A stretch of DNA of 32,307 bases from NCBI GenBank assembly GCA_945787105.1, contig CALZGZ010000186.1, positions 1 through 32,307 of the forward strand, written 5' to 3'. Both the position numbers and the translations under genes were made by a program. How positions within the stretch are numbered: position 1 is the first letter of the stretch; each line of letters opens with the position of its first letter. Below are positions 5-23,713 of this stretch, in pieces. The DNA comes from an uncultured Gammaproteobacteria bacterium. GTDB taxonomy: Bacteria; Pseudomonadota; Gammaproteobacteria; Arenicellales; JAANXG01. The notes below the pieces were generated by a model. The model did no database searches, was not told the DNA's origin, and was given only the letters and a program-made list of their open reading frames with translations.

Positions 5-249
5 AGCCCGCATGTCTCACCAGACGGCGCCAAAACTTCGAGTCCGCGGCAGAACGTAAGGCATCGAGCCGAAGTCAACAATTACAACGTGTTTCCGCAG
101 TCACCCTATCCCGGTCCTGACTGGTTCTCGCACATCTGTGCTTGGCCTTCACTCGACCCATGGCCCGCTATGGATCTCGCTCCAGGCGCGGCGCCCAGCT
201 GCACGAGTCCTGCGTCAGCATCCGGGATCCTGGTGCGACATGCGGGCTA
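5..249 (+). repeat. MITE-like dispersed repeat, copy A (lacks the palindromic core)
   Basis: Left end AGCCCGCATGTCTCACCAG; right end CTGGTGCGACATGCGGGCT is its near-perfect reverse complement. Internal 'ctggttctcgcacatctgtgcttgg', 'gctccaggcgcggcgc' and 'catccgggatcctggt' are shared with copy C. Confidence 0.8.
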
Positions 250-6515: not shown

Positions 6516-6823
6516 AGCCCGCATTGCTCACCAGAATCCCGCATTCTGACGCCGGACTCATGCAGCTGAGCCCCCTGCTGTGCGGGGACAAGCGCCGCGC
6601 CTGGAGCTAAGAAACTGGGGTCTGAATTCAATTCAGACCCCAGTTTCTTTCGAGTGCAGGCCCAGCGCAGAGGTGCGCGAACCAGCCAGGGCCGGGATAC
6701 CCCGCCCCTATTCATGGTCTGCCCTGAAGAGACCCGCAACGTCTTTTCTATGCAATGGCTGCATAGGATTGTCCAGATCGCTAGATCAGCATAGAGGTGG
6801 GGCGCCTGGTGAGAAATGGGGCT
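6516..6823 (-). repeat. MITE-like dispersed repeat, copy B (inverted relative to A and C)
   Basis: Bounded by agcccgcattgctcaccag and ctggtgagaaatggggct. Its reverse complement aligns end to end with copy C, including the palindromic core. Confidence 0.85.
6609..6649. repeat. perfect 41-nt palindrome (20-bp arms, 1-nt centre)
   Basis: aagaaactggggtctgaatt-c-aattcagaccccagtttctt. Confidence 0.97.
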
Positions 6824-7010
6824 GGAACTTTCGACTCCGGGCAGGTAAGGATCCGGCCTGGTAGCCGGTCTACCTCCTTAAGGCACCACACAGAAACTTT
6901 TACCTTCGAAACGAGTCTCACTGTCTCATTGGCCATTATGGCTCATTTTGACGCGTAATTTCGGCTCTTTAAACCATCGATATAACGTCAACCAACAGGA
7001 GTAGATTGCA

Positions 7011-9505: not shown

Positions 9506-10525
9506 ATGGAACCCAACACGCAAACCATTCAGATTCCCAACGACGGTCCTTCGTTTGACGAGGCTTTGCGCACCAGCGGTCTGGGGTTGCTCGCGCGCGC
9601 GCCGCTGAGCGAGCTGCAGGTCAACCTGGGCAGACTTTGCAACCAAGCTTGCTCCCACTGCCATGTCGACGCGGGCCCCAAGCGCACGGAGATAATGCCA
9701 TGGCAGACCATGATGCGGATCTTGTCCTGGTTCGACATGGCGCGCTTGCCGCGCGTGGATATCACCGGCGGGGCCCCGGAGTTGAATCCCCATTTCCGCA
9801 GATTTGTAGACGGATTCATCGCCCTCGGCGCCCACGTCACCGCGCGCTGCAATCTCACCGTCTTGTTTGAACCGGATCAGGAAGATCTTGCTGGGTGGTA
9901 TGCACACCGGCGCATCCGGTTGGTGTGCTCGCTGCCTTGTTACTCGAAGCGCAACGTCGATGAGCAACGGGGAAAAGGCGTTTTCAACAAAAGCATTGAG
10001 GCGTTGCAGGTTCTGAACCGGCATGGTTACGGCCTCGAGGAGGGGTTGGATCTCGATCTGGTCTACAATCCGGGGGGCGCGGCGTTACCGCCCGCCCAAG
10101 AACCACTCGAAGCGGACTACAAAACCCGTCTGTTCGATGGATTTGGCATTCGCTTCAACCGCTTGCTCACCCTCACTAATCTGCCTATCAACCGCTTTGC
10201 CCACTATCTGCAGCGTACCGGCCAAATGCAGAGTTACCAGCAGTTGCTGGTGGAAAATTTCAATCGACAGAGTGTTCCCAACCTGATGTGCCGCCACCTG
10301 TTGAGTGTTGACTGGTTGGGGCAGGTCTATGACTGCGATTTCAATCAGATGCTGGCGTTACCCCTCGGCGATGGTGGCGCGAGACATCTATGGGAACTTG
10401 ATCCGCACGCGATCAAAGATGCGCCGATTGCGGTGGATCGGCATTGCTTCGGATGCACCGCCGGAGCCGGAAGCAGTTGTGGCGGCGCGTTGGTATCGAA
10501 CAGCACGGGATCCTTGGGGGAATAA
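9506..10525 (+). CDS. arsS: ArsS-like radical SAM/Cys-rich domain protein
   Basis: 'CNQACSHCHVDAGP' radical SAM motif, 'DITGGAPELNPHFRRFV', C-terminal 'HCFGCTAGAGSSCGGAL'. Confidence 0.85.
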   Translation: MEPNTQTIQIPNDGPSFDEALRTSGLGLLARAPLSELQVNLGRLCNQACSHCHVDAGPKRTEIMPWQTMMRILSWFDMARLPRVDITGGAPELNPHFRRFVDGFIALGAHVTARCNLTVLFEPDQEDLAGWYAHRRIRLVCSLPCYSKRNVDEQRGKGVFNKSIEALQVLNRHGYGLEEGLDLDLVYNPGGAALPPAQEPLEADYKTRLFDGFGIRFNRLLTLTNLPINRFAHYLQRTGQMQSYQQLLVENFNRQSVPNLMCRHLLSVDWLGQVYDCDFNQMLALPLGDGGARHLWELDPHAIKDAPIAVDRHCFGCTAGAGSSCGGALVSNSTGSLGE

Positions 10526-10530
10526 ACGGC

Positions 10531-11679
10531 TTAGGTTACCAAGTCGTCGAAGAAGGAGCGCAGTTTGTCGGTCCAAGAACTTTCACGCGGACTGTGGCGT
10601 GCACCGCCATCGCGAACAGACTCTTCCACTTGCTTGAGCAATTCCTTTTGCCGCTTGGTGAGGTTTACCGGCGTTTCCGCGGTGATTTTGCAATACAGGT
10701 CTCCCACGCTTCCGCCGCGTACGTTTCTAACACCCTTGGCACGCAATCGAAACACTTTCTCAGTCTGTGACTCCGGCGGCACCTTGATACGCGCCCGGCC
10801 ATCCAGAGTGGGAACCTCAATCTCACCGCCAAGCGCCAGAGTCGCGAAACTCACCGGCATTTCGCAATAAAGGTTTTCGCCGTCACGTTTGAAGATGGGG
10901 TGCGGCTTGAGTTGGATCGACACGTACAGATCGCCAGGCACGCCATTTTTGCCGCCGCTCTCGCCCTCTTCGGCGAGGCGTATCTGGTCACCCTCGTCGA
11001 TACCGGCCGGCACCTTTACCGACAACGTCTTGGTTTCCTTGACCAAACCGGACCCATGGCATCGGCCACAGGGATCTTTGATCACCGATCCGCCGCCCCG
11101 GCATGCGGGGCAAGTTTGCTGCACGGAAAAGAAACCTTGTTGCATTCGCACCTGGCCCGCACCACCGCAGGTGGAGCAAGACACCGGCGCAGTCCCCGGC
11201 GAGGCGCCGGTACCGTTGCACCGATCACAGACTACTGACGTGGGAACACGGATCTTGGCTTCCGTGCCACGTACCGCCTCTTCAAGGCCCAAAGGCAGGT
11301 TGTATCGTAGGTCGGCACCGCGCGCGCGCCCACGCCCACGGGAGCGCTGCTGTGGGCCACCGCCACCGAATATGTCGCCAAATATATCTCCGAAGATATC
11401 GCTAAATCCGCCTGCACCCGGCCCATGAAATCCGCCGCCAACGCCGGCCGTGGGATCGACGCCTGCATGCCCGAACTGATCATACGCGGCGCGCTTTTGC
11501 CCATCACTGAGAATCTCATAGGCCTCTTTGGCTTCTTTGAACTTAGCCTCAGAATCCTTATCACCGGTGTTTCGGTCCGGATGATATTTCATCGCCAACC
11601 GCCGGTACGCCTTCTTGATCTCGCTTTCCGACGCGTTACGTTGAATACCCAATGTCTCGTAATAATCACCCTTTGCCAT
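10531..11679 (-). CDS. dnaJ: chaperone DnaJ
   Basis: J-domain 'YHPDRN' (HPD), G/F region, four CxxCxGxG zinc repeats. Start set at [11 protein letters not shown]. Confidence 0.97.
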
Positions 11680-11807
11680 AATACTTCCAGCGTTTGTTAT
11701 CGCCGACCAACGGAATCGTTTAACCAATCATTCCGCGGGTTTATCCCGGGAAATAATATCTTGCCGCGTAAGCAAGACCGGCGTGGGCTTCCGTCCACGC
11801 CTATGCT

Positions 11808-12115
11808 AGCCCGCATTTCTCACCAGGCGCCCCGCCCCCGTGCACCGAGGAAACCCGCAGCGTTTCTTCCAAGAAATGACGACATTGTGACTTGGCAAGA
11901 ATACGGACGGGGCATCCTGGCCCTGGCTGGTTCTCGCATCTCTGCGCTGGGCCTACACGCGAAAGAAAATGGGGTCTGAATTGAATTCAGACCCCATCCT
12001 CTTGGCTCCAGGCGCTGCGCTCGTCCCCGCCTTGTGCCCGCACAGCAGGGGATCAGAGAACTCACCTGCACGAGCCCGGCGCCGTCATCCGGGATCCTGG
12101 TAAGAACTGCGGGCT
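11808..12115 (+). repeat. MITE-like dispersed repeat, copy C (between dnaK and dnaJ)
   Basis: agcccgcatttctcaccaggcgcc ... catccgggatcctggtaagaactgcgggct; same length (308 bp) as copy B. Confidence 0.85.
11969..11997. repeat. perfect 29-nt palindrome inside copy C
   Basis: atggggtctgaatt-g-aattcagaccccat. Confidence 0.97.
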
Positions 12116-12140
12116 GGAACTTGCACCCTGGTAACTACAA

Positions 12141-14078
12141 TCAGCTTTTCTTTTCGTCGTCTTTGACTTCTTCGAACTCGGCATCCACGACATTTTCTTC
12201 CTCCGAAGCAGTACCGGCTTGCGCCGATGAGCCCTGCGCAGTCTCCGCTTGTTCGGTGCTTGACTGCTTGTACATCTCCTCAGCCAAACGATGACTGGCT
12301 TCTGCTACCGCCTGCGTCTTCGTCTTGATCGCATCGATATCGTCTCCCTTCATAGCTTCCTCTAATTCCTTGAGGGCATCTTCGATCTTGCTCTTTTCTT
12401 CGCCACTGAGTTTATCACCCATCTCGTTGATCGACTTGCGTACACTGTGAGCCATGGCATCACTCTGATTGCGAGCGTCCACCAGTTCCCTCGCTTTGCG
12501 GTCTTCCTCGGCATGCTCTTCCGCATCCCTGACCATTTTATCAATCTCGTCATCGCTCAATCCCGAGCTGGATTTGATCACGATCTTGTTCTCTTTGTTC
12601 GTCGCTTTGTCCTTAGCCGAAACATGCATAATACCGTTGGCATCGATATCGAATGTGACCTCGATCTGTGGTATGCCCCGAGACGCAGGCGGGATATCGG
12701 TTAGGTCAAACCGTCCCAGCGACTTGTTACCACTTGCCATCTCACGCTCACCTTGCAACACATGCACGGTGACCGCAGTCTGATTATCGTCCGCGGTGGA
12801 AAATACTTGGTTGGCCTTAGTCGGTATGGTGGTGTTTTTGTCGATCAACTTAGTCATGACACCACCGAGCGTCTCGATCCCAAGTGACAAGGGAGTCACA
12901 TCCAGGAGCAGCACATCCTTGACCTCACCGCCTAGCACACCGCCTTGAATCGCCGCACCCACGGCCACTGCCTCGTCGGGGTTAACATCTTTACGTGGCT
13001 CCTTGCCGAAGAAATTCTTCACTGTCTCCTGCACCTTCGGCATCCGCGTCTGACCACCGACCAAAATCACGTCATCGATCTCACCGGCCGAAGTGCTTGC
13101 GTCCTTCAATGCAATCTTGCACGGCTCCACGGTTCTTTGTATCAATTCTTCCACCATCGATTCCAACTTGGCCCGCGTCACTTTCATGGTCAAATGCTTG
13201 GGGCCACTTTGGTCCGCAGTAATGTAGGGCAGATTCACCTCGGTCTGAACCGCAGAAGACAACTCAATCTTCGCCTTCTCCGCCGCTTCCTTTAGACGTT
13301 GCATAGCCAACGGGTCACCGCGCAGATCGATTCCCTGGTCCTTTTTGAATTCGTCGGCAAGATAATCGATCAATCGGCGGTCGAAGTCCTCGCCACCCAG
13401 AAACGTGTCACCATTTGTCGACAACACCTCGAATTGATGTTCGCCGTCCACTTCGGCGATTTCGATAATAGAAATATCGAAGGTTCCACCACCCAAGTCG
13501 TACACCGCGATCTTGTGATCACCTTTTTGCTTCTCGAGACCATAGGCCAACGCCGCGGCAGTGGGTTCATTAATGATACGCTTCACATCCAGACCCGCGA
13601 TCCTTCCAGCATCTTTCGTGGCTTGGCGTTGCGAGTCGTTGAAATAAGCGGGTACAGTAATCACCGCCTCAGTGATTTCTTGTCCCAGATAGTCCTCGAC
13701 GGTCTTTTTCATCTTCTGCAGCACGCGCGCCGCAAGTTCAGGCGGCGCCATCTCCTTGCCGTTTACATTGACCCAAGCATCTCCGTTACTGGCCTTGACA
13801 ATTTTGTAAGGCATCAGCCCGATATCGCGCTGCACGACATCTTCGTCAAACTTGCGGCCAATCAAACGCTTGATCGCAAATAACGTGTTGTGGGGATTGG
13901 TCACCGCCTGACGCTTGGCCGGTTGCCCTACCAGCACCTCACCATCATCGGTATACGCCACCACCGACGGCGTAGTGCGGTCCCCTTCGCTGTTTTCAAT
14001 GACCCGGGCTTTGTCGCCATCCATCACTGCCACGCAGGAGTTGGTGGTGCCGAGGTCAATGCCGATTATCTTTCCCAT
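12141..14078 (-). CDS. dnaK: molecular chaperone DnaK
   Basis: '[21 protein letters not shown]', '[17 protein letters not shown]' and acidic C-terminus '[10 protein letters not shown]'. Confidence 0.98.
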
Positions 14079-14154
14079 AGTGATTTCCCCTAAAACTCGT
14101 TGTGCCTGTTCAATTGTCGAATTGTTAATAAAGATGGGTACAAACTCGGTTTTT

Positions 14155-14922
14155 TCAAGCTTTTTCCTGTTCTGGCGGCTCGCTGGCCGTAGGTTCCGCC
14201 GCCTTGGCAACAACCACCATGGCCGGCCGAATCAGGCGATCCTGAAGCGTGTATCCCTTTTGTATAATCGAATGAATATGATTGGGTTGAATATCGCTGG
14301 ATTCCTGAATACTCATCGCCTGGTGCCGGTCTGGGTCCAATTTCTCGCCGGGTTCCGGTGCGACGACGCGAATGGCGAATTTCTCGAATACGCTGTCCAT
14401 TTGCCTCAAGGTCAGCTCCAACCCCTCCAGCATCGTTTCCAGGGCCGTCGCGTCTTGTTCATCGAGGTCAACGGCCTTCGCCAACTCCAAACTGTCTCGA
14501 ACCGTAAGCATTTCTGAGGCGAAACGTTCAATCGCGTAGTTGCGCACATTAGCGACTTCATTGTCGGCCCGGCGCCGGGTATTCTCGGTTTCCGCCTTCG
14601 CACGGAGGAATTTATCCTTGAGTTCTTCGATTTCCGTCATCGCGCTATCCAGATCGCGTCGCAGGGCCTCAACGTCGACATCATCCCCATCTGGAGCGTG
14701 GGTTCCCGCCTCACGCACCGGCACCGCCGCCTCTCTGACAGAACTCTCCGCCTCACGTCCGGGCACGGCTGCCTCCGCGGGAGTTACCGACGCGGCTTTA
14801 TCGGCGTGTGTTTCTTGATGCGTAGTTTGAGAATTGGTTTGCGCCTTGCGCCTTTTTTTCACCTGAAAATCACTCCACAGCTTTCTGAAGCTCGAGTTGG
14901 GGTCACTGCGGGCGGATTTCAA
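14155..14922 (-). CDS. grpE: nucleotide exchange factor GrpE
   Basis: '[37 protein letters not shown]' and '[41 protein letters not shown]'. Confidence 0.95.
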
Positions 14923-15012
14923 GCCGCGCGCGACAATCGCAAATCGATCCCCGTTTTTGCATTACCGGGCTATATCCAACCCATTTGGAAAACTTCGCTT
15001 TATTTATTGGAT

Positions 15013-16059
15013 TTATTCCAATCGATCGGAGGTGGTGGATAGTGCGCCACTCAACAGGCGTGCGGTAACATCCACAACTGGGATAACCTCGTCGTAGGAC
15101 ATCCGTGTCGGTCCAATTACCCCCACAGTTCCGATGATCTCTCCGTCGTGGTCATAGGGGGCCGTTACCACACTACAGTCGTCCAGTGACCGGTAGCCCG
15201 ATTCCCCGCCGATGAAGATGCTGATGCCGCTGACCTTCATGCTGCGATCGAGCAGATCCAATAGATCTTGTTTGGTTTTAAACGCATCGAAAAGTTTTTG
15301 CAGTTTCTCTATCTGGCAAAGATCGGGCACGTTCAATAGGTTCGCCTCACCACTCAACATGACTGCATCGGGGCCGTCGTCCTCATCGTCGAAGAGTTTA
15401 CCTGCTACGGCCAAGGCGGTGGCCGTAATTCGATGCATTTCGTCACTGTCTTTTTGCATTTCTTTCAGCAGCCCGCGCCGAACATCCGCCAACGAGGTTC
15501 CCGCGTAGACTTGATTGAAAAAATTCGCAGCTTCAACGAGCTCACTTGCCGCATAAGAGCGATCAGTGGGTATTACGCGATTTTGAACCCGGCCGTCATC
15601 GGTGATCAGGATCGTTAACACGCGCTGCGACGCCAGCTTCACGAATTCGATCTGCCGGAACAACGAACTCCTTTGGCCGGGTATCAAAACCACACCGGCA
15701 AAATGAGTCACTTGTGACAGAAGTTCGGACGCCTTGGTCAGCAACAGTTGCGGATCGCTCTCATTGGAGAATTTTTCTTGCATCTCCTCGAGCGTAAGTT
15801 GCTCAAGAGGTTTTATCTGTAACAGCGAGTCGACAAAAAAGCGGTAACCTTCCTGAGTTGGAATCCGTCCCGCGGAAGTGTGTGGCGAATGGATTAGGCC
15901 GAGGTCCTCCAGGTCCGACATCACATTCCTCACCGTCGCCGGACTCAGGCTGCGTTTTAGTTTCCGCGCCAGCGTCCGGGACCCGACCGGTTGCCCCTCA
16001 TTGATGTATAGCTCGACTAGAGCTCGAAGCAGCGTTTCCGCGCGATCATTCAGCTTCAT
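15013..16059 (-). CDS. hrcA: heat-inducible transcriptional repressor HrcA
   Basis: 'SRTLARKLKRSLSPATVRNVMSDLEDLGLIHSPHTSAGRIPTQEGYRFFVDSLL' and 'GVIGPTRMSYDEVIPVVDVTARLLS'. Confidence 0.97.
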   Translation of the reverse strand: MKLNDRAETLLRALVELYINEGQPVGSRTLARKLKRSLSPATVRNVMSDLEDLGLIHSPHTSAGRIPTQEGYRFFVDSLLQIKPLEQLTLEEMQEKFSNESDPQLLLTKASELLSQVTHFAGVVLIPGQRSSLFRQIEFVKLASQRVLTILITDDGRVQNRVIPTDRSYAASELVEAANFFNQVYAGTSLADVRRGLLKEMQKDSDEMHRITATALAVAGKLFDDEDDGPDAVMLSGEANLLNVPDLCQIEKLQKLFDAFKTKQDLLDLLDRSMKVSGISIFIGGESGYRSLDDCSVVTAPYDHDGEIIGTVGVIGPTRMSYDEVIPVVDVTARLLSGALSTTSDRLE

Positions 16060-16086
16060 TACCGTTCAGTTAGTTGCCTGTGGTTG

Positions 16087-16113
16087 TTAGCACTCGGATC
16101 AGCGGAGTGCTAA
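16087..16113. promoter_or_regulatory. CIRCE operator (HrcA binding site)
   Basis: TTAGCACTC-ggatcagcg-GAGTGCTAA matches the CIRCE consensus exactly (9-bp arms, 9-nt spacer), 27 bp upstream of the hrcA start. Confidence 0.97.
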
Positions 16114-16220
16114 TGAAACACGCTATCAACGTCCCGCCGCACTGTCAATATCAGCGATATCAGACAACCCTATTGACAATACCTCGAATTCGGTTTGCGC
16201 TGCGCACCCCGACCGCCGAT

Positions 16221-16569
16221 ATGCCGCATATTCCACCAACGCGCCCCGACTCTAGTTGTTGCCAAGCAACCTGGAGAATCGAATGTCGCCACTTCAAAGG
16301 AGCAGACGCTGGGGGTCTCGCCACTGCAGACCATGAGTAGAGGCGGGGCTATACCGCCCCCGATTCGGTCTCGAACACCTGAACTCGCGCATCACTCAAC
16401 CCGTAACTACGACTCCGGCGATGCATTTCGCTCCAGCGCGGCGCTTGTCCCCGCACAGCAGGGGGCTTGTCCCCGCCTTGTCCCCGCACAGCAGGGGAAC
16501 AGCAGGGGAACCACGCGCCGGACAAGTCCCGGCGTCATAATCTGGGATCCTGGGTGCGATATTCGGGCT
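16221..16569 (+). repeat. MITE-like dispersed repeat, copy D (degenerate, with internal tandem duplication)
   Basis: Degenerate left end 'gccgcatattccaccaacgcgccccg'; interior 'gcagaccatgagtagaggcgggg' as in copy B; right end 'tctgggatcctgggtgcgatattcgggct'; 'cttgtccccgcacagcagggg' duplicated. Confidence 0.65.
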
Positions 16570-23357: not shown

Positions 23358-23713
23358 GGGGGCGACACGGCTTCGACGTGGGTCGCGAAACCATCGGGGC
23401 ATGCCGAGGTGCGGAATTCCTCGTAAATCCAGCCGCAAACCATTAGTTGCCAATAACGACAACTACCAACTAGCCGCTTAAATCCGGTTAGTCCTCTCAC
23501 CTGATTTGCCTACGGATTGGGATTCGAGGGGTCAAATCACATAGGATCGCGTAACGTTGCGTCCGTTAACGTTGCGTTAAATTCAAGCGGACTCGCTGAT
23601 CAGTACGCCCGTTCGCCGGTGTACGGTCAGTCAAACACAAGGGCGGACTAAGCATGTAGATCCGATGCGCGGAGGGCTTGCGGACGCGGGTTCGATTCCC
23701 GCCGCCTCCACCA
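23358..23713 (+). ncRNA. ssrA: tmRNA
   Basis: 5' GGGGGCGACACGGCTTCGACGTGGGT; 3' GCGGGTTCGATTCCCGCCGCCTCCACCA; acceptor pairing GGGGGCG/CGCCTCC with G-U at position 3; tag ORF 23449-23481 encodes ANNDNYQLAA*. Confidence 0.97.

Follow-up and report, generated by a model that had tools for sequence, protein, structure and literature searches.

A structured MITE between dnaK and dnaJ of an uncultured gammaproteobacterium and its apparently widespread family

A MITE in the dnaK-dnaJ intergenic region

In the window (the whole 32,307-nt stretch of DNA analysed), the 461-nt gap between the dnaK stop (12141) and the dnaJ start (11679), both on the minus strand, is mostly filled by a 308-bp repeat at 11808-12115. 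This repeat, copy C, is a member of a multicopy family with 20-bp terminal inverted repeats (TIRs) and a Y-TA-R target. It is highly probable that copy C is a non-autonomous MITE that was placed in trans via its TIRs, had its interior remodelled and is tolerated at this site, where it provides neither a promoter nor an intrinsic terminator. Copy C itself is thus an element of an ordinary kind, whereas its family is structured and, apparently, unusually widespread.

The first-pass annotation had described a repeat insertion with a very strong hairpin, and this observation is confirmed; the element would lie within an hrcA-grpE-dnaK-dnaJ transcript. The limits of the two genes, the gap and the element hold; the repeat has relatives in the window and 68 BLAST matches genome-wide (whole or partial elements), and its TIRs are absent from a reversed control; the hairpin reaches -30 kcal/mol (z = -6.1), with 0 of 200 shuffles equally stable; and a perfect CIRCE operator precedes the genes, with no sigma70-type promoter found in 10400-16400. 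The folding stability of the whole 461-nt gap corresponds to z = -5.9. The features are collected in Table 1, where the dnaK start is approximate, the mechanical ORF extending to 14213 and the homologue alignments starting near ORF residue 44. An ArsS-like radical SAM (seleno)protein gene (TIGR04167, 9506-10525) adjoins dnaJ, and a tmRNA gene lies at 23358-23713 (Rfam RF00023, E = 2.5e-92).

Table 1. Coordinates of the element copies and of the heat-shock cluster in the window
Feature	Position	Strand	Remarks
Copy A, canonical form of 244 bp, carrying the common GACCCAT(A/G)GC hairpin	5..248	-	R1 E = 1.1e-27, in training set
Copy B, with GGGGTCTGAATT palindrome	6516..6824	+	
dnaJ	10531..11679	-	NCBIfam NF008035 / TIGR02349, over cut-off
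Native dnaK-dnaJ hairpin, 7 pairs, broken U-tract	11780..11801	-	Terminator-like in sister species, weakened here
Copy C, MITE, 308 bp	11808..12115	-	TIRs and genome-wide copies; structured core in dnaK-dnaJ mRNA sense
TIR of copy C, dnaJ-proximal, exact family consensus AGCCCGCATTTCTCACCAGG	11808..11827	+	
Conserved branched core of copy C, covarying stems, plus CCCCTGCTGTGCGGG...GGGGAC insert	11911..12095	-	Model R1 match, E = 1.9e-4
41-nt palindrome AAGA..GGGGTCTGAATTGAATTCAGACCCC..TCTT in apical-hairpin slot	11963..12003		Separate dispersed repeat
TIR of copy C, dnaK-proximal, AGCCCGCAGTTCTTACCAGG, 2 differences	12096..12115	-	
dnaK	12141..14084	-	NCBIfam NF001413 / TIGR02350
grpE	14155..14922	-	NCBIfam NF010737; ORF extent, start possibly internal
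hrcA	15013..16059	-	NCBIfam TIGR00331
CIRCE operator, perfect	16087..16113	-	Upstream of hrcA
Copy D, decayed, TIRs ATGCCGCATATTCCACCAAC / AGCCCGAATATCGCACCCAG	16221..16569	-	CIRCE/hrcA promoter region to divergent nadK

Copies of the element in the genome

The assignment of copy C to the MITEs rests on its size, ends, copy number and flanks. The element is short (the family mode is 244-247 bp) and its ends are the inverted repeats AGCCCGCATTTCTCACCAGG and CCTGGTAAGAACTGCGGGCT. Searched with at most one mismatch, the 4.8-Mb draft genome holds 61 TIRs (34 + 27), against none in the reversed control; with up to two mismatches, two other genomes have 614 and 95 termini. Among the 86 paired elements from all genomes, 57 are flanked by TA on both sides. 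The target reads YTA/R, with T at -2 in 37 and A at -1 in 48 of 53 termini of this genome; copy C retains TA on its dnaJ side alone, the dnaK side reading CT/GG. With 308 bp, copy C is too short to encode its own transposase and has no transposase-like ORF.

Since copy D lies near the hrcA promoter, the heat-shock cluster holds copies both at its head and at the dnaK-dnaJ junction. A 127-bp segment at 577-703, whose ends are the variants ACCCCGCATATTGCACCATG / AGCCCGCATAGTGCGCCGCG, resembles a further short member, and the genome has a second TIR subfamily with AGCCCGCATATTGCACCAAG-type ends. The contig of the window starts inside copy A (1-248), and draft contigs of this and sister genomes often stop 70-180 nt inside the element, which is therefore a main cause of assembly breaks; such contig ends fit with recent identical copies, among which an autonomous element may be concealed. 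Members of the family occur in every gene context. Between same-strand neighbour genes their orientation is unbiased (7 vs 10), and by crude gene calls they are commoner between convergent than between divergent genes (14 vs 4), a pattern to be expected of an element that is tolerated, not recruited.

Conserved branched core and its exchangeable hairpin

On one strand, the interior of the element folds into a conserved branched structure, with strong compensatory covariation across genera. From 36 aligned elements, drawn both from this genus and from elsewhere, a consensus of a TIR stem plus internal stems was obtained. In the 36 internal pairs, 88.0% of cells are paired vs 73.8% in shuffled and 28-39% in slid alignments, and double changes fill 186 cells vs 70±6 (shuffled) and 18-56 (slid); these cells count sequences, not events, and the structure came from the sequences tested, which partly favours it over the slid control. 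The tree-based count gives 27 compensatory double changes. R1, a covariance model of the core, matched 28 places in the loci of this genome and found the core beside TIRs in records of Gammaproteobacteria, Thiodiazotropha and Acidobacteria, several of the Acidobacteria matches resembling training rows; over 36 loci fetched by dnaK or IS630, its sole match was the dnaK-dnaJ copy of the sister species G005 (8.4e-25), the other 35 loci being without the TIR. Three alignment rows represent an Acidobacteria-type version, and both fold and ends are found again in Acidobacteriota. No copy matched an Rfam family, even with E values as high as 1 allowed.

The apical hairpin of the core reads GACCCATAGC..GCTATGGGTC in most copies. 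Copies B and C, like several more, carry AAGAAA-N-GGGGTCTGAATTNAATTCAGACCCC-N-TTTCTT in its slot, and four loci (L059, L022, L014, and L010) have other unrelated palindromes there. The slot hairpins are diverse and always self-complementary. The 25-nt palindrome is also present outside the slot (L031:220 and L033:1771) and is thus a separate dispersed repeat, a guest in the element. The 41-nt GGGGTCTGAATT palindrome resembles the dispersed extragenic palindromes of REP/RAYT systems, and the genome has two Y1-type transposase genes (L210 and L211); however, neither gene has the palindrome nearby, and the MITE itself differs in having TIRs and a TA target. A literature search with the palindrome strings returned only one unrelated cancer paper.

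These features bear on an alternative view, in which the family is a mobile element of structured RNA or single-stranded DNA that needs its fold as well as its TIRs for mobility or maintenance, the dnaK-dnaJ gap being merely a landing site. It would account for stems that covary across genera (including the three Acidobacteria-type rows), for the 27 compensatory changes on the tree, for slot hairpins that vary and yet stay self-complementary, and for a core that begins directly inside one TIR in independent genomes. However, some TIR pairs of 58-130 bp have no core, and the bias of G-U over A-C changes in the core, an indicator of the strand, is only slight (24 vs 19). We regard this alternative as rather unlikely and prefer that of a MITE moved through its TIRs.

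History of the dnaK-dnaJ junction

Relatives of the studied genome (G000) were retrieved by dnaK and their junctions were compared. In the sister species G005, which shares 94.6% identity over the last 1500 nt of dnaK, an element sits at the identical nucleotide; the left and middle modules of the two copies are clearly related, whereas the apical hairpin, the CCCCTGCTG insert and the whole right module differ. The junction of G003, another sister species, reads GGGTGCAGGCTAACACAGG, best read as a deletion of the element that left GGCT from its end. A short remnant remains at the junction of G004, and no element was recognised at that of G001. The comparison indicates that an element already stood at the junction when G000 and G005 diverged; independent insertions at the same TA are a less likely account. 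After that split, we infer, the interior was exchanged or replaced. Because the element is deleted in G003 and has a swapped interior in G005, no particular element sequence is needed at the junction; the element is dispensable between dnaK and dnaJ, and the history of the site argues against an essential role. The junction offers a natural series, with the element, without it, with a remnant and with a swapped interior, in a chaperone operon that is among the best understood.

The gap also contains a conserved terminator-like hairpin, to which the insertion points; it lies directly dnaJ-ward of the element and reads ACAGGCGTGG(loop)CCACGCCTGTTTTG in G001, G003, G004, and G005. Its position is kept, with a changed sequence, across the taxonomic family and parts of the order (L062-L065, L069-L072, L076, L078, and L084). 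It scored terminator-like in G003 and G005; in G000 the T-run is interrupted and the hairpin is less stable, at -14.3 instead of -18.9 kcal/mol. Judged by these properties, the native hairpin is a better candidate attenuator of dnaJ than the element; if any part of the gap evolved to lower dnaJ transcription, it would be this hairpin. No paper on a dnaK-dnaJ hairpin with hrcA was found in the literature searched.

The weakened native hairpin of G000, together with the presence of the element at the same place in G000, G005, and partly G004, could be explained by a selected regulatory part that sets the DnaK:DnaJ ratio, perhaps as a substitute for the decayed hairpin. We find this improbable, given that the element was deleted in G003 and is not seen in G001, that G005 carries it alongside an intact native hairpin, that the right module and hairpin of the G000 and G005 copies differ beyond recognition, and that family members sit in all gene contexts.

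Possible effects on dnaJ expression

The history that we favour for copy C, that of a tolerated MITE, would run as follows. The element would have been put at a TA ~25 nt past the dnaK stop codon by a trans-acting transposase that used its TIRs; its interior would later have been remodelled as it recombined with other copies, the apical hairpin giving way to a separate palindromic repeat. Copy C would be tolerated because it lies behind dnaK and outside coding sequence, and precedes the leader and ribosome-binding site of dnaJ itself.

The first-pass interpretation, that the element could alter dnaJ stoichiometry by attenuation, RNase processing or a new promoter, proved half right and is only partly supported. 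An intrinsic terminator in the element is rejected, since its hairpin has no following T-tract and drew no terminator call; attenuation by the element itself is not supported. The promoter scan likewise found no promoter in it. A promoter for dnaJ, such as a sigma32 site within the palindrome, could be imagined from the string CCCCATTT, which by eye resembles a sigma32 -10 element; the closest -35-like hexamer, however, lies ~11 nt upstream, short of the sigma32 spacing of 13-15, and sigma70-type sites number 0 vs 3.3 expected in shuffles. A new promoter is therefore very improbable.

An influence through RNA is a different matter. The element would be co-transcribed with dnaK and dnaJ from the CIRCE promoter; in that case RNA processing is its likeliest effect, as its long double-stranded block may be cut by RNase III/E or act as a 3' barrier. 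RNA processing of this kind has precedents in Correia/NEMIS and ERIC (PMC10969869, PMC2229807): RNase III cleaves co-transcripts at the TIRs of Correia/NEMIS (PMC2229807, PMC10969869), and ERIC/IRU, which is co-transcribed, can alter the stability of upstream mRNA (PMC2229807). By analogy, a Correia/ERIC-like effect of the element on dnaJ stoichiometry is possible; that such processing would modestly, and measurably, uncouple dnaK from dnaJ mRNA is a tentative expectation that we would not bet on. The unbiased orientation between same-strand genes argues against a general role in sense RNA.

Distribution of the family and search for a mobilising enzyme

The exact 20-mer of the TIR occurs in records labelled Gammaproteobacteria, Acidobacteria, Terriglobia, Alphaproteobacteria, Deltaproteobacteria, Planctomycetota, and Verrucomicrobia, although MAG labels can err, and also in the isolate Acanthopleuribacter pedis. 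At two mismatches or less, there are 614 ends in A. pedis and 95 in a complete Terriglobia chromosome. Within the order of the window, the TIR is limited to its taxonomic family save one genome. The A. pedis loci (L126, L275, L280, and L282) include 58-bp elements with little beyond the two ends, and others with tandem GCCGCCCCGCGGATG inside.

Several sources of the mobilising activity were considered. Derivation from IS1380 was rejected, as PF13701 has no match in this genome, and so was derivation from IS630/Tc1-mariner, as this genome has no DDE_3 and the DDE_3 loci of other TIR-bearing genomes are without the TIR. Larger TIR-bounded segments (L059, 1.16 kb; L104, 1.2 kb; L275, ~2 kb) were dismissed as autonomous copies because inspection revealed no transposase-like ORF. 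No transposase stood beside the termini examined in the complete 95-terminus Terriglobia chromosome, where single ends open, by eye, into housekeeping genes such as those for MnmE and valyl-tRNA synthetase, and none of the ORFs recurring beside TIRs was recognised as a transposase. Viral contigs had no exact TIR, and neither the palindrome nor the two MITE versions tried gave a match in plasmids. Because no transposase with these ends was found, we infer mobility from copy number and flanks.

The TIR strings were not found in the literature searched, and this structured, cross-phylum MITE family is apparently undescribed. Near-identical ends across phyla, a covarying core and copies by the hundred in a single cultured bacterium, all without an identifiable transposase, pose the questions of which enzyme moves the family and why the fold is retained. 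One conceivable answer, to which we give limited credence, is a cross-phylum mobile family with near-identical 20-bp ends in Gammaproteobacteria and Acidobacteriota, as well as in MAGs labelled Verrucomicrobia, Planctomycetota and others, whose branched fold is kept by compensatory change and needed for mobility or maintenance and whose enzyme falls outside the transposase families tested.

Comparison with known repeats

Three families of small intergenic repeats offer parallels. Like RUP of Streptococcus pneumoniae (PMC2229807), the copy C family is a multicopy, intergenic MITE with a TA target and its duplication; RUP is smaller (107 bp with 9-bp TIRs, against ~245 bp with 20-bp TIRs), and a matching autonomous element, IS630-Spn1, has been proposed for it, whereas none was found for the copy C family. 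Correia/NEMIS of Neisseria is likewise a short, intergenic TIR element with terminal TA and possible long stem-loops (PMC2229807, PMC10969869). Its TIR sequence is unrelated, its sizes are 107 and 155 bp, and the descriptions consulted mention neither a modular, covarying core nor a swappable hairpin like those of the copy C family. ERIC/IRU of enterobacteria is also a small folded intergenic repeat with TA termini, but it is 127 bp long, has a 7-bp TIR and is unrelated in sequence.
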